40,327 nucleotides of DNA from positions 1-40,327 of the forward strand of contig CAUJEL010000118.1 of the NCBI GenBank assembly GCA_963169875.1, written 5' to 3'. The notes beneath the pieces are model-generated. The model saw only the letters and a list, made by a program, of their open reading frames with translations. It had not been told where the DNA came from and ran no database searches. This document shows positions 6,542 to 36,291 of the stretch, piece by piece (positions within the stretch are counted from its first letter, which is position 1; every line of letters starts with the position of its first letter). This DNA comes from Candidatus Zhuqueibacterota bacterium. Its GTDB lineage: Bacteria > Zhuqueibacterota > Zhuqueibacteria > Residuimicrobiales > Residuimicrobiaceae. The position numbers and the translations under genes were made by a program.

Positions 6542-6874
6542 TTATTTCGTCAAAAAATCCAGCCGCGCCGGCGAAAAAGTATCGATGAGCACGCCGGCTT
6601 CGAGGCATTGGGCGCCGTGCATCTGATCCGAAGGGATGATGAAGCAATCCCCCGGATGCAGCACCTCTTTGACGCCGTTGATTTCCACCTCAAAAACGCC
6701 GCTCTCCACACAGGTGATCTGCTGATGCGGGTGTGCATGACGGGCGGCGATGGCACCGCCGTCGAAGTGTACGCGCACCAGCATCAGATGGGTATCATGG
6801 GCCATGATCTGACGACGGATGCCCGGAGCGGCCTCTTCAACGGGCACGCTGTTGTTAAAAATATGTGTTTTCAT
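6542..6874 (-). CDS. kdgF: KdgF-like cupin, unsaturated uronate ring-opening protein
   Basis: 110-residue single-domain cupin. KdgF proteins speed conversion of the unsaturated monouronate released by alginate and pectin lyases into its linear keto form (DEH/DKI). The metal site is visible as His46, His48, Gln52 in 'RHAHPHQQ' and His86 in 'DQMHGA'. The C-terminal trio Asp98, Phe100, Arg104 keeps the spacing (+2, +6) of the catalytic Asp-Phe-Arg described for characterised KdgF proteins. Length is normal for the family. Its ATG overlaps the stop of the upstream MFS gene as ATGA, implying translational coupling. Together with the PL6, PL17, transporter and SDR genes it completes the path to DEH. 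Confidence 0.88.
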   Translation of the reverse strand: MKTHIFNNSVPVEEAAPGIRRQIMAHDTHLMLVRVHFDGGAIAARHAHPHQQITCVESGVFEVEINGVKEVLHPGDCFIIPSDQMHGAQCLEAGVLIDTFSPARLDFLTK

Positions 6875-8148: not shown

Positions 8149-8185
8149 CCTTTTGCTCCATTTGTAGTTAATGGGTACTACTTGT

Positions 8186-8213
8186 GGTCTCCAGCTTTTT
8201 TCGTTGGGCCCCA
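8186..8213 (+). repeat. Hairpin repeat, copy R1 (decayed)
   Basis: 28-bp unit matching R2 at 21 of 28 positions: GGtCTCCA arm, T-rich loop, TGGGcCCCA arm. Lies between the PL17 gene and the MFS gene in the same orientation as R2, 68 bp from it. Confidence 0.55.
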
Positions 8214-8251
8214 TCTTTACTGCTGTCAGGCTTCGTTGTTGTGCCCTGCCA

Positions 8252-8282
8252 TTGGGCTCCACCTGCTTTTGCTGGGGCCCAA
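8252..8282 (+). repeat. Hairpin repeat, copy R2
   Basis: Imperfect inverted repeat with arms TTGGGCTCCACC and GCTGGGGCCCAA around a 7-nt loop. It pairs over 12 positions, with one T·G wobble and one C/C mismatch on the plus strand. It is in the opposite orientation to R4-R6. Confidence 0.7.
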
Positions 8283-8392: not shown

Positions 8393-10579
8393 CTAGCGCA
8401 TCTCCACTTTGTAATTCCCCGTCCAGGTGTAAGAATTGCCGGAGAATGTCACCTCATGCTTTTTATCCACAGAGGCTTCGCCATTATTGACCATGATCAC
8501 CCAGCGCAACTCCTTTTCGCCGCTCACCTCGATCACCGAGCCGGTCTCATTGTGGCCGATGACCTTGATCCCGGTCAACCTGCCCCTGGCGCCATTGGAC
8601 TGCTCGCGCGCTTCGTTGAAATGGCCGTGCGATTCGATGACCGAGGCGAAGAGATGATCCTGCGCCTGTGTACGGATCAGGAACAGGGGTTCGGAGAGCA
8701 GGTTGTAGTTCGGATCGTTGGCGCCGCTGCGGCCGAACAGAACCTCGCTGCCCGCTGCGGCTGCGGCGAGCAGGGTATAGTAGCGATTGCCATCGAGCCA
8801 GGTGATCTTGACAGGACCTTCCACCCGGGCCGATGCGGTGCGCCAGATATGCTGATAGCCGAAATCCGCGCCCAGCGGCGACTGCGCCGTGACATCAGGC
8901 TGATACTCGAAATTGGCCGTGATGAATTGTCCCTGATGATGGATCGGATAATCATAGACATGCATCTGATCGCTGTTGATGCGATAGAGATCGACCACCA
9001 CGGGATGGGGCAGGCGCTCATCCTGGATCAGAAAGAGCGTGCGCTGCATGGCTGTGCCGGGATAATAGCCTTCCGCATGGGCGCTCATGACCTGAACATC
9101 CGGATTGCTGGAATCGAAGAAATGGCGCTTCGCGGACATCTCATCGGCCTGCTTGCGGTTGGCAAGATTCTGACTCGTCTGATCCACGGTGACCGTGTTA
9201 TGGGCGATGGTCTGCATGGCGTAGGATTTGTTTTCCGGCAGATAACGGCCGCCCATTTTGGGCTCGATGTTGATCCAGCGGCAGAATCCATAATCCGGGA
9301 TGACCGACCGTCCCTGATCGTAATAGATAAAATGCAGTTTGTCGAAATGACCATGCCCTTCCCCGTGCACGCCGTATTTCATCAGCAGCATGGATTGCTT
9401 TTCCCCGGCGCCCAGGCGCAGAATCCCCAGTCCGCCTTGCCGACCATCATGTCCATCCGTGAACTCGATGCTGCCCCAATCCATGGGGGCGATTTTTTCC
9501 TGTGCGGCAAAGTCACGCGCCACCATCAAACCGGCGCCATTGATGATCACATCCTTCTGGATTTTTTTTACCGCCAGCAGATTGGGATCAGCGCCGTAGC
9601 GGCTATGGACCAGGTCATTGGCCATGATCATGCCGCTGTCGCGGATGTCCATGGTGCGCGAGGCATCGTTGATAGGCGGAAAAACGCCGTCCGGGAAGGT
9701 TGTCTGAACCGCCGAATAATAGGCTTTTTTGAGTATCTGATCGCGATAGGCATAAATTTTCAATTCGGGTTGATTGCGTTCGATGGCCTCGGCAAAGATG
9801 AAAAAAGGCTGCAAGGCATAGCGCGCATAATAGGGACCCTCCATGTAGTAGCCATCGGGTGAAAAGAGTAGGTCGAGCTGTTTGAGAAAACCGCCCACCC
9901 CGTCCTTGCGCGTCCCGTACAGGGCCATGTCGACCAGGTTTTTGTCTTCCAGTACATAGCCGATCAAGCCGATGGAGCAGACCGTCCAGGTGCCGTGATT
10001 GTGGATACGGTCGAATTCCTTGTGGTTTTCTGTGGTGAACCAGTCGATGATGAGGCGGAAGACATTTTTTTCAATGCGAGCGCGTGTTTCCGCGTCGAGC
10101 CAATCATAGATGCAATCGTAGGCCATGCTGGTATAGGTGAGCCAGAGGGTCTCGTTGAGCATCTGGTGAAACAGCTTGCCGGGCGCCTGGTCGCGGGATT
10201 GCGGATGTTTTCCCAGGGTTGGATAAAGCTTGGCATATTCCAACAGCATATCACGGATGAAGCGGGCATATTTTTCTTCACCCGTCAATGTGAAGCAGAC
10301 GCCGGCCTGGTACATCTCGCGGTAATTCTGTTTGTGACGCTCGTGTTCATAGCCGCCGCCTTCACCGGGCGGGGGAACCACGATGGGACTGGAAACTGCT
10401 TTATCCGCCGCTTTTTTCAGTTGGCTCAAGGAGTGATCAAAGAGCGTATATTTGCCGGTATTATTGTTTATCACGGCGGCTTCTTTTTTGTCGATGATCA
10501 GATTGGGCCGCTCTCCGGCAACAAGAGCAGTGCCAGTTGCGAAAAGGAATAAAAATAAGGAGGTATAAATTCGCCTCAT
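8393..10579 (-). CDS. PL17 oligoalginate lyase
   Basis: 728 residues with signal peptide MRRIYTSLFLFLFATGTALVAG. Exolytic lyase that cuts alginate oligomers by beta-elimination to 4,5-unsaturated mono-uronate, probably periplasmic since it lacks a T9SS sorting domain. The alginate-lyase toroid domain carries Asn194-His195 ('HNHGTW') and Tyr251 in 'EGPYYARYALQPF'. The heparinase II/III-type C-terminal domain carries 'GVHGEGHGHFDKLH' (His405/409/411) and Tyr446 in 'GRYLPENKSY'. Spacing agrees with the Asn, Tyr258, His and Tyr450 site known from Saccharophagus Alg17C. Length fits the family. GGGAG lies 9 nt before the ATG. Hairpin repeats R3, R2 and R1 follow the stop codon before the MFS gene. 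Confidence 0.94.
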   Translation of the reverse strand: MRRIYTSLFLFLFATGTALVAGERPNLIIDKKEAAVINNNTGKYTLFDHSLSQLKKAADKAVSSPIVVPPPGEGGGYEHERHKQNYREMYQAGVCFTLTGEEKYARFIRDMLLEYAKLYPTLGKHPQSRDQAPGKLFHQMLNETLWLTYTSMAYDCIYDWLDAETRARIEKNVFRLIIDWFTTENHKEFDRIHNHGTWTVCSIGLIGYVLEDKNLVDMALYGTRKDGVGGFLKQLDLLFSPDGYYMEGPYYARYALQPFFIFAEAIERNQPELKIYAYRDQILKKAYYSAVQTTFPDGVFPPINDASRTMDIRDSGMIMANDLVHSRYGADPNLLAVKKIQKDVIINGAGLMVARDFAAQEKIAPMDWGSIEFTDGHDGRQGGLGILRLGAGEKQSMLLMKYGVHGEGHGHFDKLHFIYYDQGRSVIPDYGFCRWINIEPKMGGRYLPENKSYAMQTIAHNTVTVDQTSQNLANRKQADEMSAKRHFFDSSNPDVQVMSAHAEGYYPGTAMQRTLFLIQDERLPHPVVVDLYRINSDQMHVYDYPIHHQGQFITANFEYQPDVTAQSPLGADFGYQHIWRTASARVEGPVKITWLDGNRYYTLLAAAAAGSEVLFGRSGANDPNYNLLSEPLFLIRTQAQDHLFASVIESHGHFNEAREQSNGARGRLTGIKVIGHNETGSVIEVSGEKELRWVIMVNNGEASVDKKHEVTFSGNSYTWTGNYKVEMR

Positions 10580-10848: not shown

Positions 10849-11610
10849 TCAAGGCATATACAATCCGCCGTTGATCTCCAGTGACTGGCCTGTCATATAG
10901 TCGGATAGTGCGGATGCGAGAAAGAGGACGATTTTGGCCACATCGTCCGCGCTGCCGGCCCTGCCCAGGGGAATGACGGAGGGCATTTTGTCCTGCGCCT
11001 CCTTCGAAGTGAAGGTATTATGAAAAGCGGTTTGGGCGATGAATCCGGGCGATACCGCATTCACAGTGATGCCAAAGGGCGCCAGTTCCTTGGCCAGCGA
11101 TTTGGTGAAGGTCCAGATGGCGCCTTTGGAAGCCGCATAGGCCGCGGCGCCGGGGCCGCCGCCGTCATGGGCCGCCTGCGAGGAAAAGTTGATGATTTTT
11201 CCCGCGCGCTTTTCCTTCATGTGCGGCAGGACCAGATGAGACATGACAAACGCGGTCTTCAAGTTGACATCCAGAACGGTCTGGAAATGGTCTTCATCGA
11301 AATCAGCCACCGGCACGCGTTTGACCAGGCCGCCGGCGTTGTTGATGAGAATGTCGATGCCGCCGAACTCCAGGGCCGCCTCCACCAGTTTTTGCGCCTC
11401 CTGTTTGCTGGTGACATCGGCGATGACGGCTTTAACCCGGCCGCCTCTCTCGCTGATGCCCTGCGCCACTTCTTCCAGTTTGGCCGGATTTTCATGATTG
11501 TTGATGACCACGGCCGCGCCGCTGGCGGCCAGCGTCTCCGCCACCGCCCTGCCAATGCCCTGGATGCTGCCGGTGACAATGGCTACCTTGTCTGTCAATG
11601 ATAATTCCAT
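10849..11610 (-). CDS. SDR-family oxidoreductase, probable DEH reductase
   Basis: 253 residues, classical short-chain dehydrogenase. The cofactor loop is 'TGSIQGIG' (13-20), 'NNAGG' is at 90-94, and the catalytic set is Ser144, Tyr158, Lys162 in YAASK. In alginate catabolism such enzymes reduce DEH to KDG with NAD(P)H. KduD-like enzymes of similar size do a related step in pectin catabolism, so the exact substrate is inferred from the neighbouring alginate lyases. 'VVINNHE' after the second strand lacks an obvious Arg for NADPH, so the cofactor is left open. AAGGAG sits 6 nt before the ATG inside the 13-bp gap after the PL6 gene, so the two are almost certainly co-transcribed. The ending 'LEINGGLYMP' is family-like. 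Confidence 0.85.
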   Translation of the reverse strand: MELSLTDKVAIVTGSIQGIGRAVAETLAASGAAVVINNHENPAKLEEVAQGISERGGRVKAVIADVTSKQEAQKLVEAALEFGGIDILINNAGGLVKRVPVADFDEDHFQTVLDVNLKTAFVMSHLVLPHMKEKRAGKIINFSSQAAHDGGGPGAAAYAASKGAIWTFTKSLAKELAPFGITVNAVSPGFIAQTAFHNTFTSKEAQDKMPSVIPLGRAGSADDVAKIVLFLASALSDYMTGQSLEINGGLYMP

Positions 11611-11623
11611 GATCGACTCCTTA

Positions 11624-13795
11624 TTAGTTGATCAAAATCATTTTTTTCATCACTGTGTATTCATTGCAACTCAATTGGTACAGATAGACGCCCGAGGCCA
11701 ACCGGGCGTTCGTGAAAGTGGAGACATAATCGCCAGGCTGCAGCACACGGTCCAGCAGCGTGGTTACTTCGCGGCCATGGGCGGTGAAGATGCGCAGAAT
11801 GGTGCGACCAGGTTTCCGGATTGAAAAGCGTATCTGCGTGCTTCCATTGAACGGATTGGGATAGTTTTGCTGCAGTTGATATTGCTGCAGCAGCGGCACT
11901 TGCCCCTGTACCTGACTGGTCTGCGAGAAAACGGCCAGGACCATTTTATCCCCATCCAGGACGAGACTATCCGGATTGGCCGTGCTGACCAGGTCGCCAT
12001 CAAATTGAACAAAGCGCCATCCTGAATCCGGGATGGCCGTTACATGCACCATTGTATGCGGCGGATAGTTCCCGCCGGGCGGATCCATCTCGACGCGGCC
12101 GCCGGAGGAGAAGACGAACACCGTGAGTTTATACAAAGTGGGCGTATCCGCCGCAAAGACCGCGCGCAGGGTGGTGTCGGCTTGCACAGAGATTTGCAGG
12201 GGATTTGCCGTGTCGTAATTCATGCCTTCCCAGCGCACAAACTTCCACCCGGCATTCGGGGTGGCTGTCAGCGTCACCGGAGTTCCTTTATCATAAACGC
12301 CTCCGGGCGGATCCAGGGCCACGTTCCCCGCGCCGGTTTTGAGAACCGTGACGACCAGGGGGATGGGATTTTTCATCCATTCAGGCATGACATCCTGCGC
12401 GGTGAGCGGCCGACGGTTCAGTGGATCCGCGCTCAACTGGTCGGCGCCCGCATCTTTTGGCATGCTCCGCGCCTGGCCATCCATGTCGTCCGCGATATAA
12501 TCGTATGAACCCGCGGCGGCGCCATACACCGGACTGCTGCTGCCCGGTCTCCACAAGGCATCCGTTGCGACCTGCAGTTCTGGATTGATGAAAGCGATTC
12601 CCGCAGGCTGCGAAATGCCCAGGGACGATCCCCAGAAAATATTGCCTTGCCAGGTCAGATTGACGGGTGCGTCCTCCTGGGTGACTACCTTATACTCCCC
12701 TTGCACGACGTTGTTGGCAATGATGCAGTCCTGCGGCGGCAGGCTGCGCTCACTGTCATGGCCGGCGCCGAGGATGAGCGGATAGCGGCAGTCGACAAAA
12801 GTGTTGAAGGCGACCACGGCTTTTTTGACCTGGAAATAGCGGTTCAACGGCGAATCGGGGACGCCGTTCATGATGGGCAGCGCGGATTTGAGGCTGCTGC
12901 CGTAAAGGCCTTCAAAGTAGTTGTTGTAGACCAGATGCTCTTCGCCGATGATGCGAACGCCGCCGGTTTCACTGCTGCGGTGGCCGAAAAAGAAATTGCC
13001 GGCCACGGTGCAGCGGTTGCCGTGGCGCAGAGTCAGGGCGCCTTCGCAATCGACAAAGGTGTTGTAGCGGTAAATATTTTCGCAGCTCTTGTTGGAGATG
13101 ACTTCGATCTCGCCGTTGCACCGTTCAAAATAGTTGTATTCCACGATGGTGCGCGAATTTTCCATGGAATAATCGCTGGTGCCGATGCGGATGGTCTCGC
13201 CGCCGTTTTCGCCCAGAGGCGGCCGATAAGCGAAATAGTTGTGATCGATGCGATGATGATGGGGATGATAGGGAAACCAGACCACCAGGGTGGTGCCCAT
13301 ATGGTTCTTGCCGGCGAAGTAGCAATGGTCGACCCGGTTGTAGGCGCCATAGAGCGACACCCATTTGTAATCCGTCGATTTGCTGGATGGATTATAGTTG
13401 ACGATGGCGCTGTTGGTGAGGCGGCAGTAGTTGGCTGCCGCGCCGGAGCGGAATTCCACCACCGCTCCGGAGGGGCTGTAGCCGCCCACGAAGCGCAATC
13501 CGTCCGCGATCAGATAAGAGCCGGAGAATCTCAGCGTCGAGGTTCCCGTGAGAATGACGGCGCCGGGTTTCTCGGCCCGCAGGACGATGGGATTAGTTTC
13601 GGTGCCAACACCTCTGAAAACAATGGCGGCATTGTTCCAGACGCCCGCGGCCATCAGGAGCGTGTCGCCGGGTTGGGCCTTGGCAAGTGCTGTGGTGATC
13701 TCCGCAACTGTTTTTACCGGATAGTTGGTGGCCTGGCCTGGGACAGTGACCAAGAGCATCAGGAGGAGTAGTGTTTTTATCAGAAAATGGTTCAT
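11624..13795 (-). CDS. PL6 (chondroitinase B-type) alginate lyase with two InlB-type repeats and T9SS sorting domain
   Basis: 723 residues. A signal peptide (to about 'PGQA') is followed by a right-handed beta-helix of roughly 430 residues typical of PL6. The key site is complete: calcium ligands Glu229 and Glu231 in 'NGEIEVISNKS', catalytic Lys236 and Arg257 in 'TLRHGN', spaced exactly like Glu243, Glu245, Lys250 and Arg271 of chondroitinase B. After the helix come two 'divergent InlB B-repeat' modules (about 480-625; motifs 'GGVYDKGTPVTLTATPNAGW' and 'RFVQFDGD'), then a T9SS C-terminal domain with 'QNYPNPFN' ending 'MKKMILIN'. It is therefore predicted to be secreted or cell-surface and to make oligomers for the TonB receptor. 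AAGG lies 6 nt before the ATG. Specificity (M, G or mixed) cannot be read from sequence. Confidence 0.93.
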   Translation of the reverse strand: MNHFLIKTLLLLMLLVTVPGQATNYPVKTVAEITTALAKAQPGDTLLMAAGVWNNAAIVFRGVGTETNPIVLRAEKPGAVILTGTSTLRFSGSYLIADGLRFVGGYSPSGAVVEFRSGAAANYCRLTNSAIVNYNPSSKSTDYKWVSLYGAYNRVDHCYFAGKNHMGTTLVVWFPYHPHHHRIDHNYFAYRPPLGENGGETIRIGTSDYSMENSRTIVEYNYFERCNGEIEVISNKSCENIYRYNTFVDCEGALTLRHGNRCTVAGNFFFGHRSSETGGVRIIGEEHLVYNNYFEGLYGSSLKSALPIMNGVPDSPLNRYFQVKKAVVAFNTFVDCRYPLILGAGHDSERSLPPQDCIIANNVVQGEYKVVTQEDAPVNLTWQGNIFWGSSLGISQPAGIAFINPELQVATDALWRPGSSSPVYGAAAGSYDYIADDMDGQARSMPKDAGADQLSADPLNRRPLTAQDVMPEWMKNPIPLVVTVLKTGAGNVALDPPGGVYDKGTPVTLTATPNAGWKFVRWEGMNYDTANPLQISVQADTTLRAVFAADTPTLYKLTVFVFSSGGRVEMDPPGGNYPPHTMVHVTAIPDSGWRFVQFDGDLVSTANPDSLVLDGDKMVLAVFSQTSQVQGQVPLLQQYQLQQNYPNPFNGSTQIRFSIRKPGRTILRIFTAHGREVTTLLDRVLQPGDYVSTFTNARLASGVYLYQLSCNEYTVMKKMILIN

Positions 13796-13976: not shown

Positions 13977-16900
13977 TTACTTGACCATGGTCATTTTGCG
14001 GATCGAGACAAAATCACCGGATTGGAGTTTGTAGAAATAGACGCCAGAAACCAGTTCCGGCACCTGCACCTGCATCGTATACCGCCCCGCTTCCATACGT
14101 TTGTCCACCAGCGTCGCCACCACGCGGCCCAACAGATCGAATATCTGCAATCTGGTTTGACCGGGATGCTTCAGGGCAAAGCTGATGGTCGTCGATGGAT
14201 TGAAGGGATTGGGATAATTCTGCTGCAGGGCATATTCCGTCGGCAGGCCCTCGGCCAGGTCGATTCCTGTGATCAGTTCGAATGCTGCCGTGATGGTTTT
14301 GCTCTGATCGAGCGTGACCTGAACCGGATTCTGTACGCTGCTGACGTCGCCGCTCCAGCCGACGAAATAGTGGGCTGAATCAGGCTCCGCGGTCAACGTG
14401 ACCACGGTATTCGGGTCATAGGTGTAGCCAATGGGCGGCGGCTCAACCACGATGTGTCCGGGGCCGGTGATGACAAGCGACAGTCCGACATGTGTCGGGG
14501 AATTGGTGGCCCAGCGCAGATCGCCCAATGCTTCACCGTCGTGGCCCATGCCATAGAGATGGGAGGATGGCAGCAGTGTGTAGTTGCCGTTGGCGGCATC
14601 TTCAAAGCGCGGGTCGATGCCCCAGATGGTGGACGCATCCACAACGCCATCGGTTGCCTTGATTTCCACTTTCGCCACCTGGAAGGTATCCACATCGGAA
14701 ACGAAACTGGGAATAGCGCCACTGCCCTGCACATCCATCAGATCGCCGTCGCGGCCGTGATTGGACAGGCGGCTGTTGGCGATGATGATGTCGCGCACCA
14801 CGGCGCCGCCGCTGTTCTTCAAATAGAACGCCCGCGTGGCCGAGTTGTTAATGGTGACATGTTCGATGATCACCGGCGCATCGGGGGTTCCTTCAGCCAG
14901 ATCGGAGTAGTAGCGCACGCACTCGGCATCGATGTTGGTGAAGGTGCAGTTGCGGACGATGAGCGAGTCGAGGCAGCGTTCGGTGACGTACTTTTCCGTC
15001 TCCGAGATGCGGATCGCCTCATAGCCGAAATTGGCGAACGTGCACTGCTCAAGACGAACCGTGCCCGCCACGATGTTGACATCAAACCGCACGGCATGAC
15101 CGTCCTTGTTGATGTCTTTCAATTCAAAAAAGTTCATCACATCGCAGTTGCGCAGCGTGATGTCGGTGCCCACTTTGACCTTTGTGCCATTGTCATAATC
15201 CCGCAAACGGATGGCGTATTTCATGCCGTGACTCTGCTCGTGACCGCCATCTATGACCACGCCGTCGATGGTTAAATCATCAAAGACGCGGAAGACGTCG
15301 AGATTGAGTTTTTCCGGATCGCTGTTGGTGATGACCGGTTTTTGCGCCAGACCCGGGGCCGCCACGATGGTCAACGGCGCCGTGACCGCCACGTCCTCGG
15401 TATTATAGGAAGTGTACAAACCGCCGCTGGTGGTCAGGATCAAGGTGTCGATTTTGCTGTTGTTGTTGGCGAATGCCACTGCATCGTAGAGGTCCCAGCT
15501 GGCATCGATCTCCAGGGCGCCGCGGGTGAAATCGATCTCTGCAAAGGTGGCGGTGATGGCTTTATCCGCATCCATGACAATCGAGTCCGGACTTGCAGCG
15601 GAGACGAGATCGCCGCTCCAGCCAACGAACTGCCAGCCGGGTGCGGCGGTTGCGGTCAGGTAGACCACGGCGCTGCTGTCATAGGTGCCGAGAATCGGCT
15701 GCGGATCGGCCGCCACGCTGCCCAGGCCTTCGGTTACCAGGTTAAGGGCGAACTGGGTGAAGACACTGGCAAAGGAGGCGGTGACGTGCATGGCCGAATC
15801 GACTGAAACCTGCACTGGATTGACAGCGCCGGCCAGATCGCCCTGCCATTCGACGAATTTCCAGTTATTCTGCGGCACGGCGGTCAGGGTCACCAGGGTG
15901 CCCTGAAAATACTGGCCGTTCACCGGCGCCGGATCGAGCATGACATGGCCGAGACCGAGCGTGTCCACCGTGAAGGCGACCTTGGGCGCCAGGTTTTCGA
16001 AAATGGCTTTGACGGTTTTGTGGTCATCCATGGTGATGGTGGCCACGGGATTGTCGGGCGGGAAAATCAACACGCCTTCCCAGCCCGCCAGTTTCCAGCC
16101 TGCGGCGGGATTAGCTGTCAAGGTGACTTCGGTGCCGGGATCATAGGCGCCGCCCGGCGGATTGAGCGCAACGGTGCCATTGCCTTCTAATTGAATCGTC
16201 AAGGTGAATTGATTGGGCGAGGCTTCCCAGCGCAGATCGCCCATGGCACGACCGTCATCGGCGGCGCCGCGGACCGGAGAATTGACCGCCAGCCGGTAAT
16301 CGCCCGTGGCCGGATCCTGGTACAGCGGATCGAGTTCCAGCATGCCGGCGCCGCTGACGGCGCTGCCTTCCAGTTTCACCGGTTTGGTGTTGAACAGATC
16401 CGAATAGGCAATGGACGAGTTCCCGTACAGCTGCACCGAGGCGCTGGCGGTTCCGCCCTGATTGGTAAAGATGCAGTTCTTGATCTGTACATCGTTGACA
16501 TTGGTGGGATAGAGGATGCGTTTGTTCTCGCGATAAGCGATGGAATCAAAGGTGCAGTGATTGATGCGTACCATGGGATCGCTGAATTCGAGATAGAGCG
16601 CTTCGCGGCCGATCTTGAAGAAAGAGCAATTGTCGATTTCCAGGTACTGGATGGTGGGGCCGCCGCCGGCGGTGCTCTCACGCAGCAGGATGGCCTCATT
16701 ATAGGCGCGCTGGAAGATCGTATTGGTGAAGACCAGGCTGTCGCCGATGGTCCAGGTGTGGCATTTCACCAGCGATTCCTTGGAGTCGTGCAACCAGCAG
16801 TCATCCACTTTCAAGACAAAATGGAAAGAGTCGGCTTCTGCGGCGATGTCCTCGGAACGGATGATGTTCTTCACAAAGGCCGCTCCGCCGTCGGCCGCAC

Positions 16901-18227
16901 GGCCGTCGAGGTCCAACCCTTGCAGATGAAGATTGCCGCCCTGGCGAATCTCAAAGATGCGCGGACTGCCGGCGCCCGGGGTCACGTTGCGGATGATGGG
17001 TTTCACCATCAGTCCCGCTGCGGCGCGGATGGTCAGCGTCTTGGTGATGTACATCTTGTCGCTGCCGTTGTAGGTGTAGAGGCCGCCGTTGTCGGTCAAT
17101 TCGATGATGTCGCCCGAATTGGCTGTATTGATGGCGTCGTTGAGGGTGTTTTCGCCCGCGGCCACATAATGGATTTGTTGCGCCGGTTCCTGCGGCGCCC
17201 AGCGCAGATCACCCAGGGCCAGGCCATCATCGGCCATGCCCAATACCGGAGAACCGGGCATCAGGGTGAAGTCCAGGTTGGCGGGATCGGCATAGAGCGG
17301 ATCCGCGTCCATCATGCCGGCGCCCATCACCGCGGTATCGTTCAACTTGACGGTGGCTACGTTAAAGGTATCACAATAGGAGATGGTCGAATTGCCAAAA
17401 AGTTCGACGGCTGTTGCAAAGGTGCCGCCTTGATTGGAAAAGATGCAGTTTTTGACTTCCACATCCGTGGCGCCCTTGGGATTGAGGATGCGCTTGTTCT
17501 GCCCGGAAGTGACGGAGACGGCATCAAAGGTGCAATGGTTGATGCGCACCACCGGATTGTTGCCTTCCGAATAGAGCGCCTCGCGTCCGATCTGCGCGAA
17601 GGTGCAGTTGCTGATCTCCAGATAATCGACGGTCGGGGCGGCCGTGGAGGATTCGCGCAGCACGATCGCTTCGTTGGTGGAGTGGGTCAAAAGGCAGTTC
17701 TTGAAAAGAATGGTATCCGCGATGGTGTACTGGTGACAGCGCAGCAGGGATTCCTTGCTTTCATGGAGCCAGCAATCTTCCACTTTGAGAACAAAGCGAA
17801 AGGAATCGGCTTCGCCGGCGACATCTTCGGAGCGGATGATGTTTTTGACAAAGCGCGCACCGTCGTCTGCAGCGCGGCCATCCAGGTTCAGTCCGATGAG
17901 ATGCAGATTCCCGCCCTTGCGGATCTCAAAAATGCGCGGGCTGCCCGCTGTCGGCGTGACATTGCGGACGATGGGCTTTGCGGCCAGGCCCGCTGCGGCG
18001 CGAATGGTCAGTGTTTTGGTGATATACATCTTGTCGCTGCCGTTGTAGGTGTAGAGACCACCACTGTCCGTCAACTCGATGACGTCGCCTTCGACGGCAG
18101 CCTCGATGGCGGCGAGCAGGGTGTTTTCACCGGCCGCCACCTGATGAATCGTCTGTGCCGGCGCTGCGCTCACAAAAAACAAAAAGGCGAGCAACAAGCA
18201 CGGCAGAATTCGTTGACACTGTTTCAT
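13977..18227 (-). CDS. Giant secreted triple beta-helix protein with InlB-type repeats and T9SS sorting domain
   Basis: 1416 residues from the ATG at 18227 (AGGAG 6 nt upstream; the frame from 18254 lacks this). Layout: signal peptide 1-25; beta-helix A (about 27-346); near-duplicate beta-helix A' (about 352-671); three InlB-type repeats (672-898); beta-helix B (about 899-1245), which is clearly homologous to the 553-aa protein encoded next door; one InlB repeat; T9SS domain with 'QNYPNPFN' ending 'IRKMTMVK'. The helix rungs carry 'KNCIF', 'INHCTF' and 'RNCTF' motifs like pectate-lyase and PL6 folds, and each helix ends 'ALGDLRW' or 'AMGDLRW'. No PL6 Lys/Arg catalytic pair is recognisable. 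Function unknown: a surface alginate-binding protein, a lyase of an undescribed family or an epimerase-like enzyme are all possible. Its place between lyase genes points to alginate. Confidence 0.85.
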   Translation of the reverse strand: MKQCQRILPCLLLAFLFFVSAAPAQTIHQVAAGENTLLAAIEAAVEGDVIELTDSGGLYTYNGSDKMYITKTLTIRAAAGLAAKPIVRNVTPTAGSPRIFEIRKGGNLHLIGLNLDGRAADDGARFVKNIIRSEDVAGEADSFRFVLKVEDCWLHESKESLLRCHQYTIADTILFKNCLLTHSTNEAIVLRESSTAAPTVDYLEISNCTFAQIGREALYSEGNNPVVRINHCTFDAVSVTSGQNKRILNPKGATDVEVKNCIFSNQGGTFATAVELFGNSTISYCDTFNVATVKLNDTAVMGAGMMDADPLYADPANLDFTLMPGSPVLGMADDGLALGDLRWAPQEPAQQIHYVAAGENTLNDAINTANSGDIIELTDNGGLYTYNGSDKMYITKTLTIRAAAGLMVKPIIRNVTPGAGSPRIFEIRQGGNLHLQGLDLDGRAADGGAAFVKNIIRSEDIAAEADSFHFVLKVDDCWLHDSKESLVKCHTWTIGDSLVFTNTIFQRAYNEAILLRESTAGGGPTIQYLEIDNCSFFKIGREALYLEFSDPMVRINHCTFDSIAYRENKRILYPTNVNDVQIKNCIFTNQGGTASASVQLYGNSSIAYSDLFNTKPVKLEGSAVSGAGMLELDPLYQDPATGDYRLAVNSPVRGAADDGRAMGDLRWEASPNQFTLTIQLEGNGTVALNPPGGAYDPGTEVTLTANPAAGWKLAGWEGVLIFPPDNPVATITMDDHKTVKAIFENLAPKVAFTVDTLGLGHVMLDPAPVNGQYFQGTLVTLTAVPQNNWKFVEWQGDLAGAVNPVQVSVDSAMHVTASFASVFTQFALNLVTEGLGSVAADPQPILGTYDSSAVVYLTATAAPGWQFVGWSGDLVSAASPDSIVMDADKAITATFAEIDFTRGALEIDASWDLYDAVAFANNNSKIDTLILTTSGGLYTSYNTEDVAVTAPLTIVAAPGLAQKPVITNSDPEKLNLDVFRVFDDLTIDGVVIDGGHEQSHGMKYAIRLRDYDNGTKVKVGTDITLRNCDVMNFFELKDINKDGHAVRFDVNIVAGTVRLEQCTFANFGYEAIRISETEKYVTERCLDSLIVRNCTFTNIDAECVRYYSDLAEGTPDAPVIIEHVTINNSATRAFYLKNSGGAVVRDIIIANSRLSNHGRDGDLMDVQGSGAIPSFVSDVDTFQVAKVEIKATDGVVDASTIWGIDPRFEDAANGNYTLLPSSHLYGMGHDGEALGDLRWATNSPTHVGLSLVITGPGHIVVEPPPIGYTYDPNTVVTLTAEPDSAHYFVGWSGDVSSVQNPVQVTLDQSKTITAAFELITGIDLAEGLPTEYALQQNYPNPFNPSTTISFALKHPGQTRLQIFDLLGRVVATLVDKRMEAGRYTMQVQVPELVSGVYFYKLQSGDFVSIRKMTMVK

Positions 18228-18280
18228 AGGGTTCTCCTGCATTTTGGGAAACATGGATGATTTAACCTGATCTATTAAAA

Positions 18281-18525: not shown

Positions 18526-20187
18526 TTACTTCATCAGCACAAATTTTTTCGTGGCTGTGTAGGGACCAGAGTTGATCCGGTAGAAATAGACGCCTGAAGG
18601 CAGGTCCGAAGCCTGGAAAGGCACACGATATTCACCGGCAGCCATCTTTTGTTGCAGCACGGTTTTCACCATCTGGCCGATCGTATTATATACTTCCAGC
18701 GTCGTCATGCCCGGCTGTTTGAGCGAAAAGCTCAGGGTCGTCGAGGCATTGAACGGATTGGGATAATTCTGCTGCAGCGCATAGGCCAGGGGCATGCCGG
18801 CCGTCTGTTTCACGCCAGTTTCACCCTCCTGAAAGGTGGCGGTGAGTGCTTTGGCGCCGTCAACGGTGAGCGACAGCGGATTGTCGCTGCTGCTGATGCT
18901 GCCGCTCCATCCGGAAAAATTCCAGCCCGAGTCCGGAACCGCGGTGAGTGTGACCATTGTGCCCGGTTCATAGTTGGGTGCGATGAGCGCTGGATCGGCG
19001 GTGACTTTCCCCTTGCCCGTGACCGTCAACACAAAGGGCACGCGGGTGGGCGTCTGGGTCGCCCAACGCAGATCGCCCAGGGCGCTGCCATCGTGGCCGA
19101 TGCCATACGCAGGCGAAGCCGCGAGCATCGTGTAATCATCTTTGAAGCGGTCCTTATACAGCGGGTCAAATGCGTAGACAGTCGCTGCATCCACCTTGCC
19201 GCCCTTGCTGGCGCTGACACGGTTTGTATAGGGGATGGAGAAAATCAGATTGAGGGTGTCGAGATGGCTGACCATGGAACCGTTGCACTGCACCTGCACG
19301 ACATAATCTGCCCGCTCGGCGCGATAGGTTTTGGGGAGTTGGCTGTTGGTGACGAGAATGTTGCGAAAGATCGTCTTTTTATTGTTTTTAATGAACGCCA
19401 TGCGCGTGCAGCTGCTGTCGACGGTGAGATGTTCCATCAAGAGATAGGCATCCTCGTTGCTGGTGTCTATGTCGGCATAAAAACGGATGCATTCGGCAAA
19501 AACATTTTTAAAGGTGCAATTTCTCACGATCAAGGTATCCACGGCGCGGGTCACTTTATATTTTTCGGTTTCCGCGATACGAATGGCCTCGTCGCCAATA
19601 TTTCGAAACAAACAGTTTTCTATGAGCACCGTTCCAGCCTTGATGATGGGTTCACCGGACAGGGGGGCTAGAAAATAGATGGCATTGCCGCCGGCGATAG
19701 TCTGCCAGTCGGGCGGAAAAATGTCTCTGAATTCGCAGTTTTTGAAGATCAGGTCCAGGCCTTCTCTCGCGTACACCCGCGGGATTTGCGTGGCCGGGCC
19801 GTGTCCGACGCGCACCGCATACTTCATCGGACGTTTGGCATTGTAGCCGTCAAAGATGACGCCATCGAAGACGACGTCGTCATGGACGCGGAAAATTTCG
19901 ATGACGCTCGAGTCCACATCGCCATGACGGAATACGGGCTTTTTCGCCAGCCCCGGTTTGGCCATAATCACCAGCGGCCGTTTGATCTGCATGTGCAGCG
20001 TGTCAGTGGTGGTATAGATGCCGCCGCTGGTGATGAGGACAATCGTGTCCACTTTGGCGGAAAAGACATAGTCGAGCGCCAGTTTAAAGTCATACTGCGT
20101 GTCGACTTCGATTTTTTTTGCCGCCGCGGTCTGGGAAAGACAGAGCGCCAGCAGCAGTGCGGTCAGAAAAATTTTGGCAACTTTCAT
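18526..20187 (-). CDS. Secreted beta-helix protein with InlB-type repeat and T9SS sorting domain
   Basis: 553 residues. The ATG at 20187 is preferred over a GTG at 20193, because AAGGAG lies 5 nt upstream. A signal peptide ends near 'SQTAAA'. A beta-helix of about 360 residues follows, with rungs such as 'ENCLFRNIGDEAIRIAETEKY' and 'RNCTFKNVFAECIRFYADI'. Then come the block 'GHDGSALGDLRWATQTPT', one InlB-type repeat ('YEPGTMVTLTAVPDSGW', 'SGWSGSI') and a T9SS domain with 'QNYPNPFN' ending 'TKKFVLMK'. Throughout its length it parallels the last third of the 1416-aa protein. It lies 165-215 bp after the outer-membrane barrel gene, separated by a dispersed repeat. No catalytic residues can be named; the same functional options apply as for its larger neighbour. 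Confidence 0.85.
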   Translation of the reverse strand: MKVAKIFLTALLLALCLSQTAAAKKIEVDTQYDFKLALDYVFSAKVDTIVLITSGGIYTTTDTLHMQIKRPLVIMAKPGLAKKPVFRHGDVDSSVIEIFRVHDDVVFDGVIFDGYNAKRPMKYAVRVGHGPATQIPRVYAREGLDLIFKNCEFRDIFPPDWQTIAGGNAIYFLAPLSGEPIIKAGTVLIENCLFRNIGDEAIRIAETEKYKVTRAVDTLIVRNCTFKNVFAECIRFYADIDTSNEDAYLLMEHLTVDSSCTRMAFIKNNKKTIFRNILVTNSQLPKTYRAERADYVVQVQCNGSMVSHLDTLNLIFSIPYTNRVSASKGGKVDAATVYAFDPLYKDRFKDDYTMLAASPAYGIGHDGSALGDLRWATQTPTRVPFVLTVTGKGKVTADPALIAPNYEPGTMVTLTAVPDSGWNFSGWSGSISSSDNPLSLTVDGAKALTATFQEGETGVKQTAGMPLAYALQQNYPNPFNASTTLSFSLKQPGMTTLEVYNTIGQMVKTVLQQKMAAGEYRVPFQASDLPSGVYFYRINSGPYTATKKFVLMK

Positions 20188-20240: not shown

Positions 20241-20404
20241 AAACCGCCGAGCGCGCCGAGGCCGCCGAGCAATTTTTATTATGATTATCGAGATATTTTT
20301 GAACCGTATTTCATCTCATTCATCAAAGTTGTTATCGATGCTATTTATATGTTTTTCATGTCATTGCGATCCTCTGCGTCCTCGGCGGTGAATAATTCAG
20401 GTTA
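20241..20404 (+). repeat. ~164-bp dispersed repeat with terminal inverted repeats, copy 1
   Basis: Starts AAACCGCCGAG and ends CTCGGCGGT followed by GAATAATTCAGGTTA. The ends ACCGCCGAG and CTCGGCGGT are perfect inverted repeats. It fills nearly the whole gap between two genes, and its last three bases supply the TAA stop of the barrel gene at 20402. It has no coding capacity, which suggests a MITE-like or palindromic intergenic element. Confidence 0.7.
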
Positions 20405-21874
20405 AAATGTATAGGTGTATCCGAACAGGATATGGTTGAAGGCTTCGTGAACATAATTGGTGTTGCTGAAATACGAATCATAATAGTTCAATCGCTGCAT
20501 TTCATAGGCTATATCAAGTCTGCCGAGGTCGAACAGGCTCAGACTGGCGCCGAAGGATAAGGTGCTCGCTGCAGGACCAATATCCTTGATCGCTGCGCCA
20601 TCGGGCACAAAGGTCGCACTGCTGTAGCGATATCCGGCCAGGAGTGCCAAAAACTGAAAGGGTTTGAATTCCATGCCGCAACGAAGTTCGGTCAAATCCG
20701 GAACATGATGCAGGGCTGCGGTGGCATCTTCGGGCGTCATCTTGCCCTGGCTGTAGTTGCAGTATTCGTAATCCAGCATGAACCGGAACGGATCGATGGG
20801 CGTTACACTGGCGCCAAAAGAAAAGGCCGCCGGATGTTCAAAGGTTTGTTCTCCTGCAGTTGTCACAGCCGCCGCGCCGCTGATGCGGGTGGCATAATCC
20901 CATTTTCGCGTCACGGTATAAGGCAACCGTACGGCCATTCCCAGATTGAGCCGGTCGAATTTGTAGAGGACGCCGATTTTAAATTGGGCTGCGGAGAATT
21001 TGGACTCGCCTTCGACGGCTGTATCCAGGGTGTCGTAAGAGAAGCGGAAGCGGTTATCCTTGGCGATGTCGAAATACCCCACGCGGTTGAGCGATTGATG
21101 ATCGGTTGCGGTGGCCTGCATCCAGTTCATCTCTGCGCCGAGGTTGAGGCGTTCTCCCAATCGCACCGCCACGGCGGCAGTCAGATTTTGCATGTCTCCT
21201 TCACGCTCCCGCGTAAATCTGGACCACGAGAAGCGCACCGTGTCGGTTACGACGCGCGGCACGAAACCATAAGCATCGTAGCCGATGTGAGGATCGAGAT
21301 AGGTGTCGTTGCGATCGAAATCGAGAATCGGCTGGCTGGAATAGGCGGCTGACAGCACGGATTGCACCCCCGCCAACTTGAGCGGCAGGGCGATGCCCAG
21401 ATTGAGCGCGCGGGTCGCAGTGGTTTTTTTCTGCCAGTCCGCGGCTTCTTCACTGAAGGGTTCAAGCCCGGTAACCGGTGGGGTGACGTGATAAGAGGTG
21501 TCCTGGGCGATCTCATAATCCCATTTGCCGTTGTTTTTCGGATCGGGCGTATATAATCCCTCCAGATAAAAAGCCATGGTCCAGAACATGCGGTTGGGAC
21601 GATAGACCTGATTTTCACGCCACTGTTTGCCATAATGGTGGGCGGCGGCGGAGATTTGCAGCCTGGTGATATCGGACAGGCCAGCCGGATTATGATACAG
21701 GGATTCGAGGTCGCCGCTTCGGGCTGTGAACGCCTGTCCCATTGCGGTGGCTTTCACGCCGCTGCTGCTCAACTGCAGCCCTTGAAAGGCGAGATCGTCG
21801 CCGCGGTGTTGAGCCGTGGCGCAGATCGCTGCCATCAAAACTATTTGAAGTACCGTGAGCGCGTATTTAAACAT
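20402..21874 (-). CDS. Outer-membrane beta-barrel protein, FadL/PorV-like
   Basis: 490 residues from the ATG at 21874, whose start MFKYALTVLQIVLMAAICATAQ is a good signal peptide. The mature N-terminus has 'GQAFTARSGDLESLYHNPAGL', the conserved opening (Gly-x-Ala, then Asn-Pro-Ala) of the OmpP1/FadL and PorV/PorQ-type barrels. Many amphipathic strands follow, and the protein ends in an aromatic strand 'HILFGYTYTF' suited to BAM insertion. It is downstream of a shorter PorV-like gene in the same operon. It may be a channel for oligosaccharides or a T9SS-associated carrier; the operon position favours a role in alginate uptake or surface attachment. Substrate unknown. Confidence 0.75.
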   Translation of the reverse strand: MFKYALTVLQIVLMAAICATAQHRGDDLAFQGLQLSSSGVKATAMGQAFTARSGDLESLYHNPAGLSDITRLQISAAAHHYGKQWRENQVYRPNRMFWTMAFYLEGLYTPDPKNNGKWDYEIAQDTSYHVTPPVTGLEPFSEEAADWQKKTTATRALNLGIALPLKLAGVQSVLSAAYSSQPILDFDRNDTYLDPHIGYDAYGFVPRVVTDTVRFSWSRFTREREGDMQNLTAAVAVRLGERLNLGAEMNWMQATATDHQSLNRVGYFDIAKDNRFRFSYDTLDTAVEGESKFSAAQFKIGVLYKFDRLNLGMAVRLPYTVTRKWDYATRISGAAAVTTAGEQTFEHPAAFSFGASVTPIDPFRFMLDYEYCNYSQGKMTPEDATAALHHVPDLTELRCGMEFKPFQFLALLAGYRYSSATFVPDGAAIKDIGPAASTLSFGASLSLFDLGRLDIAYEMQRLNYYDSYFSNTNYVHEAFNHILFGYTYTF

Positions 21875-21926
21875 GTCAATCCTGCTCCTTATTAAGAGAA
21901 GGGCGTTCAGCAAATCCTTTTTTCAA

Positions 21927-22961
21927 TTAATCGATCAAGAAGCCAAATGAGAAGCGATGAATGGCATCCAGATAGTCACCAAAATCGCTGTACGCATAGT
22001 CCATGCGAATCTTGTGCCAGGCCAAACCAAATCCAAGTGAGAGGCCTTGTTCATCGTAATTCAATTTGTATCCCCCTCTGAGGAAGAGGAGATGGTTGAA
22101 GCCATATTCCAGACCGATGTTGTACTGCTGGTCGTAATCCCTGGGCTGTACGATATCGCAGGCGAGCAGCAGGGTCTGGGTGTCGGAGTGGAACAGGGCG
22201 TTTTCATCCGCTGAAAGCAAATAGGCGGCCAGGCCGATGTTGAAGGTTTGCGGCAGCGGATAACTTTTGCCGGTGTAACGCTTGTAGTAGGAGGAATCGC
22301 TGGAGGCATCATAGCGCGGCAGATTGACATTATCATAGAATTTCACTTCCGGGCCAAAGTGGCGCACCACAGCGGCGATCTTGAGCGATTTGAATCCGGT
22401 ATCATAGGTCAATCCGGCATCGAACATGAGATTCCCCGTGCTTTTGACGCCGAGATCTTCGCGGCCGTACTTGGCGGTGACGCCGAAGGAGAATTTGTCG
22501 GTGAGGTCGCGGGCGAAAGAGAGCCCAAAGACCTGGGAGCCGGGGTGAATGGTCTCGCCGGTGTAACCCAGATAGACGCCGTCGACAAAATCGAGGGCCT
22601 CCACGGTGGTCACTTTAATCGCGCCCACATCGGTCATGATGCCATGCACGGCGAAGGTGCCAATATTGGGGACGGTGCAGGCGGCCGAGAGCGAAAAATG
22701 AGTGACATCGAGGAAATAATCCATATAATCGACGGAGATATCCATTTTTTTCACCCGCGTGAGCGCGGATGGATTGAAATAGACCGCATCCGAATGATCA
22801 GCAGCCGCGGAGAAAGCCTCGCCCAGTGCCGTGCCGCGCGCGCTGGGCATGACTTTCAGGAACTGGAACGAGGTGGTTCCCACTTTGTCGAAAGCACAAG
22901 CGGCACCCGCCCAAAGAACGGCCAGAAGGATGGGGACTATGAAAACGCTCTTTTTATTCAT
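21927..22961 (-). CDS. PorV/PorQ-family outer-membrane protein
   Basis: 344 residues from the ATG at 22961 (GAGG 7 nt upstream; a TTG at 22967 is less likely). Signal peptide MNKKSVFIVPILLAVLWAGAACA, then 'FQFLKVMPSARGTALGEAFSAAADHSDAVYFNPSAL', which closely follows the PorV/UPF0164 N-terminal signature. It ends in barrel strands 'MDYAYSDFGDYLDAIHRFSFGFLID'. PorV carries T9SS substrates or docks them at the outer membrane. Family members are also often encoded with TonB receptors in FCB lineages lacking SusD. The gene lies between the 740-aa T9SS-tagged protein (41 bp gap) and the longer barrel (52 bp gap), so all are probably on one transcript. Confidence 0.82.
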   Translation of the reverse strand: MNKKSVFIVPILLAVLWAGAACAFDKVGTTSFQFLKVMPSARGTALGEAFSAAADHSDAVYFNPSALTRVKKMDISVDYMDYFLDVTHFSLSAACTVPNIGTFAVHGIMTDVGAIKVTTVEALDFVDGVYLGYTGETIHPGSQVFGLSFARDLTDKFSFGVTAKYGREDLGVKSTGNLMFDAGLTYDTGFKSLKIAAVVRHFGPEVKFYDNVNLPRYDASSDSSYYKRYTGKSYPLPQTFNIGLAAYLLSADENALFHSDTQTLLLACDIVQPRDYDQQYNIGLEYGFNHLLFLRGGYKLNYDEQGLSLGFGLAWHKIRMDYAYSDFGDYLDAIHRFSFGFLID

Positions 22962-23002
22962 GATCAAACCTCATTATTGACCTGATCAGGCATTTGCCCA
23001 TA

Positions 23003-25225
23003 CTATTTGACAATGATGAACTTGCCACTGGTTTTGCCTCCGTCCGGGGTGGTGACGATGTAAAAATAGATGCCGGAAGCGATTTCCTGTTCGTTGCGCG
23101 TCACCTGGAACCAGGCGGTGGTATATACAGGTGCGTTATGCTCGATGGTCTGGATGAGCTGACCCGCATAGGAAAATATCCGGATGGTGCATTTTTCCGG
23201 GAGTCCGTAAAAACCGATTTTGTCTTCAGCGCCGACCTTGCCGCCAAAACCCGATTCAATGTTGAAGGGATTGGGCGCCACAAAGATCTCGCCCATTTTT
23301 TCCACCGCAGCGATGTTTTTCTCATGGCGGGTGACATTGGGGCGGCCGCTGCGATTGCCCTTATCGTCCACGGAAACCACGGAGTAATAACGCTGCTCGC
23401 CGAGTTTGAAGACGGGATCATCATCCACATACTCGTAATTATTTTCACCGTTCACCTCGCCGGCGGGAATTGAAGCGAGGAGATGCCATGGGCCCATGCC
23501 CGCATCGCTGCGGAAGAGATCAAATTTGGCCAGGTTGCCCAACAGGCGCGGATGGCGGAATTCCTCGGCGCTGCGGTTCCAGGTGATCCTGACATTGCCG
23601 TCCGAGGTGTTCCGGACGGTGATGACCGGCGCGGGTACGGGCACCGGGATGCGGTAATCGCCGTCTTTGGGATTGGCTTCCGGCCATACCGGCAGTGCGA
23701 TCGAATCCGCGCCCAGATAGGCCTGGAACGCCTTGTGGGCCACGTCGGTCACTGTCACCACGCCGGAATTGATATAATCGGGATAGCCGAAATCGTCGAG
23801 ATAGTGTTCGGTGACAACGTCGCTGCCAAAGGCGACGCGCCGGTTCCAGGAGGGTGTGGCTGCCCACTGCTGCACGGTCTGGCCGCCTTCGACGATCTTG
23901 TTGGGTTGGGCGCCATAGCCGATCACCTCGGCGAGGGCATATTCAAGTTTATCGCCCGGACGCAGGGTATAGGGGCCGAAGACGATGTGTTTTTGTGCCG
24001 CGTCGTTGCTCTGGCGATAGTTATAGGCGGCACGGCCGATCCAGCGCTCACCGGGCGGCATGGGCCAGGTGGTGCTGCCCTCGCTGTAAACGCCGCTCCA
24101 GCGTTTGTCCAGATTCATGGCATCCACGGTCATTTTGCTGCTGCGGGTGTTGCCGGTGCTGACCTTATTGGACCAGGGCTGTTTGATGTGATTGTTCGCG
24201 TCCAGTTCGTAATAGATGCCCTCCGTGGTGCGCAGGACGTTGACCGCTTCCGATTCATTGCGATCGCTTTCGATGGTGTCAACAAATGCGAGATGGCTGG
24301 TGTCATAGTACAGGATGCAAAAACCGGGCGCCTGGGGGCTGCACAAGCCGCCGCCATTTTTCCCGGTATTGGCGTACTCGAGAAAAAGCTCCTTGTTGGG
24401 TTCGCGTTTGGCATAGATCGATTCGTCGGTGATGTTGGTGCGCAGGTTCAGATTGAAGGAGAGCCAGTAATCGGCATCCCAGAAATTGTTCTGGTCGCCG
24501 CGATACATCCCGCTTTCATATTTCCATTCCTGGTAATGGCGCTGGTATCCGTACATGGAGGGGGCAAATCCGTAAATGAACAGCGCCATGAAATCCTTGA
24601 GCACGGTGGTTTGCTCGATGGTGGCCGGAACACCGTCGGTGTCGCCGGTGTACTCCAGTTCATATTCATAGATGATGAGGTCGTCGTAATCGGGATAACT
24701 CCAGGCACGGGAGGTGCGGGTGACCGTCACGCCCAGCGGCGTGGCCCAGGAGGCGACGATGATCTCTTCGGCTTCGTCCGGATCGTAGTCGGGATTCAGC
24801 GTGCCGTCTTTCAGCAGGGGATAGTTTTCCGTCCGTGTCAGCTTGAGAGGAAAGCTCCAGCGTCCGACAACGGTTTCCGAGCCGCTGCCGGTGCCCACGG
24901 CGCCGCACAGTGCATAGATGCGGTTCTCCGTGCCCGGTTTGCCGTCGGGGTTGGCGGCCATGTACACGCCTGCACCGATGAGATTATGCTGGCCGCTGTA
25001 GCGGGTGCCCTGCACCACGGTGGCGGAACGCGATGGCCATTCCATGACGGGATTATTGGTCTTGTTGCCCTCATCGCCGGTGGTCCATGGACGGCCGATA
25101 TCGCCGGAATTGTAGACCGTCTCGTGGAGCATGCCGCGGCTGTGAATCTCAAATTTCAGTTCCTGTGCGGGCAGGTTCATAGCAGCGAGCCAGATGCCCA
25201 GGAGTATAAACAGCTTTCGTTTCAT
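23003..25225 (-). CDS. Large secreted T9SS-tagged protein, TonB-receptor partner of unknown function
   Basis: 740 residues. The ATG at 25225 has GAGG 6 nt upstream and gives signal peptide MKRKLFILLGIWLAAMNLPAQ. The N-terminal about 500 residues are rich in Tyr, Trp and Asp and match no family I can name. A fibronectin-III-like part follows ('PVITVRNTSDGNVRITWNRS' to 'RYYSVVSVDDKGNRSG'), then a T9SS C-terminal domain with 'VAPNPFN' and the end 'GKTSGKFIIVK'. It starts only 19 bp after the TonB-dependent receptor stop, the position SusD occupies in Bacteroidota. I infer that it is a surface glycan-binding or receptor-lid protein playing a SusD-like part. It has no lipobox, so anchoring would be through T9SS rather than as a lipoprotein. 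Confidence 0.8.
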   Translation of the reverse strand: MKRKLFILLGIWLAAMNLPAQELKFEIHSRGMLHETVYNSGDIGRPWTTGDEGNKTNNPVMEWPSRSATVVQGTRYSGQHNLIGAGVYMAANPDGKPGTENRIYALCGAVGTGSGSETVVGRWSFPLKLTRTENYPLLKDGTLNPDYDPDEAEEIIVASWATPLGVTVTRTSRAWSYPDYDDLIIYEYELEYTGDTDGVPATIEQTTVLKDFMALFIYGFAPSMYGYQRHYQEWKYESGMYRGDQNNFWDADYWLSFNLNLRTNITDESIYAKREPNKELFLEYANTGKNGGGLCSPQAPGFCILYYDTSHLAFVDTIESDRNESEAVNVLRTTEGIYYELDANNHIKQPWSNKVSTGNTRSSKMTVDAMNLDKRWSGVYSEGSTTWPMPPGERWIGRAAYNYRQSNDAAQKHIVFGPYTLRPGDKLEYALAEVIGYGAQPNKIVEGGQTVQQWAATPSWNRRVAFGSDVVTEHYLDDFGYPDYINSGVVTVTDVAHKAFQAYLGADSIALPVWPEANPKDGDYRIPVPVPAPVITVRNTSDGNVRITWNRSAEEFRHPRLLGNLAKFDLFRSDAGMGPWHLLASIPAGEVNGENNYEYVDDDPVFKLGEQRYYSVVSVDDKGNRSGRPNVTRHEKNIAAVEKMGEIFVAPNPFNIESGFGGKVGAEDKIGFYGLPEKCTIRIFSYAGQLIQTIEHNAPVYTTAWFQVTRNEQEIASGIYFYIVTTPDGGKTSGKFIIVK

Positions 25226-25244
25226 AGCGAACCTCTGGTTTGCA

Positions 25245-29302: not shown

Positions 29303-29331
29303 TTGTTCATTACTTAATTTTTGCTTATATT
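29303..29331 (+). promoter_or_regulatory. Candidate promoter of the GH5 gene
   Basis: TTGTTC at 29303-29308, a 17-bp A/T-rich spacer, then TATATT at 29326-29331, about 53 bp upstream of the chosen GH5 start. Sequence match only. Confidence 0.42.
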
Positions 29332-29383
29332 AGTTTTTCAGTACTTGCGGTCGATGCGACGTTACTTCACAAGGAGGATTTTT

Positions 29384-36263: not shown

Positions 36264-36291
36264 CACCCATCCTTCTATCCTGATCCATTTT

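Follow-up and report, generated by a model that had tools for sequence, protein, structure and literature searches.

What do beta-helix proteins without a lyase active site contribute to an alginate-degradation locus? The question is raised by a 40,327-nucleotide stretch of DNA from a Candidatus Zhuqueibacterota bacterium (assembly GCA_963169875.1, contig CAUJEL010000118.1, positions 1 to 40,327), hereafter the window, in which two neighbouring genes encode helix proteins of 1416 and 553 amino acids beside an alginate lyase of polysaccharide lyase family 6 (PL6). The helices of both proteins (modules A1, A2, B and C) are homologues, over the full domain length, of the C-terminal domain (CTD) of two-domain PL6 lyases. 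The domain itself is already known; apparently new here is its occurrence without a catalytic domain, in one or three copies per protein, on proteins with a type IX secretion system (T9SS) sorting tail. On balance, we lean towards viewing the pair as T9SS-exported surface proteins of the alginate locus, carrying three and one free-standing PL6 CTD helices with InlB repeats as spacers, whose helices would hold alginate for the PL6 enzyme.

Architecture of the triple-helix protein

The gene lies on the reverse strand, as do all features given below unless only a range is stated with a hyphen. Its open frame spans 13977-18254(-), and an ATG at 18227 with a well-placed AGGAG yields a protein of 1416 aa (13977..18227). 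The scores reported here were obtained on mechanically called open reading frames (ORFs), which measure 1425 aa (from 18254) for this protein and 555 aa for its 553-aa neighbour. The architecture is A-A-iii-B-i-T9SS, each i standing for one InlB repeat. A signal-peptide-like N-terminus (MKQCQRILPCLLLAFLFFVSAAPAQ; 18150..18227), recognized by eye from the sequence alone, leads into module A1 (17193..18164), which has a Protein Data Bank (PDB) profile match to the BcAlyPL6 CTD at 1e-28, and module A2 (16221..17189), identified by the repeat, BLASTP, PDB profile, structural model and a DUF5123 match. Three InlB B-type repeats (Flg_new_2; 15543..16202; PF18998, 141.8 bits as a whole-protein score) separate A2 from module B (14496..15524), a divergent helix of the same type recognized by sequence and profile comparisons. 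A fourth InlB repeat, called by profile match (14277..14483), and a T9SS type A sorting tail (13980..14234; PF18962 and TIGR04183, 38.9 and 43.6 bits against a cut-off of 27) complete the protein.

The helices are homologues of PL6 C-terminal domains

When a profile of eight A modules was compared with all PDB chains, the sole matches were CTDs of two-domain PL6 alginate lyases, ranked as BcAlyPL6 (7dmk, 1.1e-28 over the entire domain), AlyGC, 8bwk and Patl3640. The corresponding B/C profile retrieved the 7dmk CTD (5.1e-10) and, as its only other match, the CTD of Patl3640 (E 0.045). Profile-profile comparison with CTDs from Bacteroidota and Gammaproteobacteria gave E 2e-29 (99.8% probability) for A and 5.6e-15 (98.4%) for B/C, while comparison with PL6 catalytic domains failed for both (34% and 0.5%, respectively). 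An AlphaFold2 model of A1-A2 consists of two beta-helices (pLDDT 88.8), and its twelve best Foldseek matches in the PDB are all two-domain PL6 lyases (3.8e-20 to 2e-10), the next match, at 2e-4, being six orders of magnitude weaker. The fold evidence is direct for A1-A2, and the fold of B and C follows by homology.

These results also bear on two Pfam families. In fused PL6 proteins, DUF4957 (PF16318) maps to the N-terminal half of the CTD and DUF5123 (PF17161) to the C-terminal half, which gives each of them a structural identity as one half of a single domain. DUF5123 corresponds to the C-terminal half of the window modules: it scores 118.4 bits over three stretches of the 1425-aa ORF (gathering cut-off 35.1) and a sub-threshold 26.2 bits in the 555-aa ORF, with DUF4957 uncalled in both helix proteins.

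The first-pass annotation had placed the 1416-aa protein among alginate lyases, seen no PL6 catalytic Lys/Arg pair in it, and suggested an undescribed alginate-active or alginate-binding family. The setting is borne out by the neighbouring genes (below), and profile and motif searches of A, B and C agree on the missing pair. The family cannot be called undescribed, as both the structural model of A1-A2 and the search against known profiles lead to PL6 CTDs with solved structures; alginate binding stays plausible. A catalytic PL6 identity is ruled out by the failed profile comparison, by the absence of any PF14592 match (PL6 catalytic) in either ORF, and by motif searches that found neither the Ca2+-binding Glu pair nor the catalytic Lys/Arg motifs (ExExxSxK ... 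LRHG) in either protein. PL31 was rejected by profile and structure searches. The DPHD motif is the catalytic motif of mannuronan C-5 epimerase; a motif search did not find it in the helix proteins, which excludes an epimerase, and AlgE6 ranked low in the Foldseek search.

About half of PL6 enzymes have a second helix. What the CTD does in two-domain enzymes is itself described as not known in a 2024 paper (PMC11381880). A 2021 review states that the CTD of BcAlyPL6 holds the substrate in a suitable conformation, that the enzyme becomes more active on long substrate once this domain is deleted, and that the CTD has weak lyase activity of its own (PMC8618178). That last statement, together with conserved charged motifs on successive coils (LRES, GREAL and NKR in A; EAIRISETEK and AECIRFYAD in B/C), could be taken to mean that the free modules are weak alginate lyases or enzymes that act on alginate in another way, with an active site of a new kind. 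We consider this very unlikely: the PL6 Lys/Arg/Glu and DPHD motifs are missing, the catalytic profiles do not match, and A and B/C have no one charged motif set in common. As a side observation, the so-called GH28 domain of the 797-aa PL6 lyase MhAly6 (PMC12028748) occupies the usual CTD position and, by analogy, may be a PL6 CTD under another name.

An old tandem of A modules

The first-pass annotation had described two adjacent, near-copy beta-helix modules with a period of about 975 bp, and the periodicity is readily recovered: a direct repeat of 300 bp (16727-17026 versus 17702-18001) recurs at a spacing of 975, and further A1/A2 blocks at 972-978 bp. "Near copies" is apt for the proteins, which are 67-68% identical across 317 aa (BLASTP E 7e-161, so that chance likeness is excluded), and less so for the DNA, where the 300-bp repeat is 73% identical. 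Third codon positions agree at just 53%; the duplication is therefore old and constrained at the protein level, which rules out a recent duplication of the window gene.

Block-wise comparison found no recent conversion tract in the window's own A1/A2 pair, and such tracts occur only in relatives. In the A pair of genome G002, identity is 89-95% over the N-terminal 220 aa and falls to about 52% in the remainder, where each copy is nearer to the window genome's copy in the same position. The pair of G137, a Calditrichota metagenome-assembled genome, shares one 54-codon block with 98% DNA identity (93% at third positions), next to a block at 78% and 37-46% elsewhere. For the N-terminal part, the approximately unbiased test rejects the grouping of all first copies in one clade (p-AU 0.0005); for the C-terminal part it does not (p-AU 0.17, on few columns). 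Judged by these alignments, the pattern is that of an old tandem with gene conversion in related genes. A first tree had pointed to independent A-A duplications in each lineage; for most lineages the mosaic favours gene conversion of an older tandem. For G028, with a single A of mixed affinities, and G046, with a divergent A pair, the gene-conversion reading is less certain.

The neighbouring single-helix protein

Domain calls and start context define the 553-aa neighbour (18526..20187) as module C (19048..20124), one InlB repeat and a T9SS tail. BLASTP, profile and tree place C in B's clade, the two helices being 39-41% identical over their length (E 5e-80). Beyond the helix, residues 909-1425 of the 1425-aa ORF, namely B and the tail, align with the entire 553-aa protein at about 43% identity, in accordance with the earlier proposal that the last part of the large protein (helix B, InlB repeat, sorting domain) parallels the whole neighbouring gene. 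The proposal that the large protein arose by fusion with its neighbour's family holds as regards the shared third helix. On phylogenetic grounds, however, B was joined to that family long ago and not recently, since B and C each form a clade across many genomes and the A-InlB3-B layout is present in a Neomarinimicrobiota genome too.

The alginate locus and its single-domain lyase

Adjacent to the helix proteins lies the only PF14592 match of the genome, a PL6 lyase with two InlB repeats and a T9SS tail (11624..13795; domain and motif searches). Its catalytic and Ca2+ motif residues are intact (Glu229, Glu231, Lys236, Arg257), and its C-terminus consists of the two repeats and the tail; a second helix is absent. 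Among PDB structures, the enzyme matches the single-domain Pedsa0632 best (7e-106).

The remaining genes agree with an alginate-lyase setting. A PL17-type oligoalginate lyase (8393..10579) was assigned by profile search at 661.9 bits, under the curated equivalog cut-off of 1400. Domain searches identified a short-chain dehydrogenase/reductase (SDR; 10849..11610), by position a candidate reductase for 4-deoxy-L-erythro-5-hexoseulose uronate (DEH), a major facilitator superfamily (MFS) transporter (6871..8262) and a FadR/GntR regulator (28175..28909). Domain searches and synteny identified a TonB-dependent receptor (25245..28118), two PorV/PorQ-family outer-membrane proteins (20402..22967) and a 751-aa protein whose tail weakly resembles CHU_C (23003..25258) and which adjoins the TonB receptor in every instance of the block observed. 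The locus is flanked by a GH5 protein with CBM6/35 and a T9SS tail (29321-31390) and by a sensor with Reg_prop, Y_Y_Y and His_kinase domains (33099-36344). A Bacteroides finegoldii plasmid locus has the same core set, comprising FadR, TonB receptor, SusD, an IPT/TIG protein, PL6, PL17, cupin, MFS and SDR.

SusD was not found in the window, where PorV-like proteins take its place. In many genomes the 751-aa protein with its CHU_C-like tail and two proteins of the PorV/PorQ family come after the TonB receptor, in the place that SusD and a surface glycan-binding protein hold in Bacteroidota loci; from gene content, the segment at 20402-25258 would seem to be an uptake block of another type. Counting itself, the 751-aa protein matches 16 places in its genome (E <= 1e-8), chiefly through its C-terminal part, and could be one of a family of surface partners.

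Free and fused modules in related genomes

The gene order FadR, TonB receptor, 751-aa protein, PorV-like pair, C, the A-A-B gene (AAB), PL6, SDR, PL17, MFS is common, whole or in part, to several families. PL6 occurs in 10 of 82 genomes of the phylum, all ten of which carry strong B/C modules, compared with 2 of the 72 PL6-negative genomes, both incomplete assemblies with the module on a short contig (Fisher 3e-11, with genomes counted as independent despite kinship).

This association has to be set against the wider DUF4957/DUF5123 family, some members of which belong to T9SS proteins encoded elsewhere than in alginate loci (L051, L052, L122-L124). Such members, and the fact that InlB repeats and an acidic make-up are frequent in surface proteins, would suit helices that are structural or adhesive, not specific for alginate, and simply carried along in the locus. 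That AAB-type and C-type clades nearly always accompany PL6, at the same place in the locus, makes this quite unlikely.

In other relatives, the modules are part of the lyase. Single-frame PL6-A-T9SS proteins occur in Neomarinimicrobiota (L062) and Calditrichia (L155). In G137, PL6-A is split over two frames (L063:8537-11254, same as L158:10639-13356), with one TAA within the A match, either a natural break or an assembly error. At L061 the A part is present and the PL6 part mostly masked. A PL6-ii-B-T9SS fusion occurs in G060 (L049), and PL6 with a classical second helix is encoded on Bacteroides, Persicobacter and Catenovulum plasmids. A tblastn search with A2 over 72,556 plasmids matched a single place, namely the PL6 CTD encoded in the B. 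finegoldii alginate locus.

The layouts vary in other ways as well. Beside PL6-ii-B, G060 encodes a protein in which two B-type helices stand in tandem and InlB repeats are absent (L049:4539-7157), a second independent tandem. G013 and G006 carry an A-derived helix in third position instead of B (L045:9231-10160, L047:5394-6326), a module replacement in place. In G002, three neighbouring T9SS proteins (L051:3-10170) have two A-type helices each, two of them with metallophosphatase domains.

Members of a single supported PL6 clade (98/99) differ in what follows the catalytic domain: A, ii, ii-B or no partner. Given that the window genome's sole PL6 has no CTD and adjoins CTD-like proteins, that relatives fuse PL6 to A or B, and that modules and PL6 co-occur, the free modules could be the missing half of the neighbouring lyase, docking in trans to rebuild the closed cleft of a two-domain enzyme. 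We regard this as unlikely. Single-domain PL6 enzymes such as BcelPL6 act on their own (PMC6879350). Moreover, G137 and G138 have PL6-A together with AAB, and in G140 PL6-A is accompanied by an A-iii-B gene, so AAB is an extra component and not a simple replacement. The same genomes weaken the idea that the triple-helix protein is merely a CTD lost from PL6; the PL6 tree itself is compatible with either loss or gain of a fused A. Finally, all ten fused CTDs examined carry a loop of the type YRGGxDESTxGP / YAGDDVPYTPGP ahead of the next coil, which is absent from all AAB-type A modules (several residues shorter), B and C having a version one residue shorter. This loop may be a defining trait of the PL6 CTD. 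A model of the fused L062 protein left the orientation of its domains unreliable (TM about 0.5, pTM 0.63).

A surface carrier of alginate-holding helices

The reading we prefer, in which exported helices hold alginate for the lyase, draws on computed domain identity, the fold of the A modules, T9SS tails, a conserved locus, co-occurrence with PL6 and the fused PL6-A and PL6-B proteins of relatives; binding and orientation at the surface are inferred by analogy with the surface glycan-binding proteins of Bacteroidota loci. Alginate chains would be bound or oriented by the helices at the cell surface and then handed on, first to the open-cleft, single-domain PL6 and after that to the TonB receptor. 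Two copies of A together with B and C would provide multivalency, possibly with differing preferences for M, G or MG blocks. The A module would have been multiplied by the old tandem duplication, and its copies in related genes partly kept alike through gene conversion.

Several observations weigh against this picture. Module C is neutral. The two A modules and B are acidic (net charge -13, -12 and -21; pI 4.6-5.0), a make-up that disfavours binding a polyanion by simple electrostatics. A-type modules also occur with metallophosphatase domains (G002 contig 346), the wider family not being confined to alginate. Lastly, as the free A modules have no fused-CTD loop, the role of the fused domain may not be transferable to them.

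A bolder and rather doubtful extension is that Calditrichota PL6 is a modular two-part system, a single-domain lyase with a surface carrier of several interchangeable CTD helices that dock onto the lyase or pre-orient the chain, the choice of A, B or C tuning the cleavage of different alginate blocks in trans.

Comparison with known systems

The PL6 CTD occurs naturally alone, in multiple copies, beside a PL6 that has none, and fused to PL6 of the same clade in relatives, a natural domain-swap series from which the role of the second helix can be learned. For neither a free-standing or multi-copy PL6 CTD nor this type of alginate locus, found in Calditrichota and Neomarinimicrobiota, was a description found in the openly accessible literature searched.

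The closest known counterparts of the window helices are the CTDs of two-domain PL6 lyases (BcAlyPL6 7dmk, AlyGC 5gkd, Patl3640 7o77, 8bwk), with which they share profile, fold and alginate setting. Unlike these, the window proteins have no catalytic domain, carry one or three helices each with InlB spacers and a T9SS tail, and their A modules do without a loop that the fused domains carry. Pfam DUF5123 and DUF4957, curated as families of unknown function, fall on the halves of the CTD, and DUF5123 overlaps the C-terminal half of the window modules. The single-domain PL6 Pedsa0632 (7o84, 7o7a) is the nearest solved structure to the window PL6 and not to the helix proteins. With respect to position, the helix proteins occupy the slot of the surface glycan-binding protein in Bacteroidota alginate loci (the IPT/TIG gene of B. 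finegoldii), between the TonB-receptor block and PL6, and a surface location is implied in both; however, they are unrelated to the IPT/TIG gene in domain type and are T9SS-sorted.

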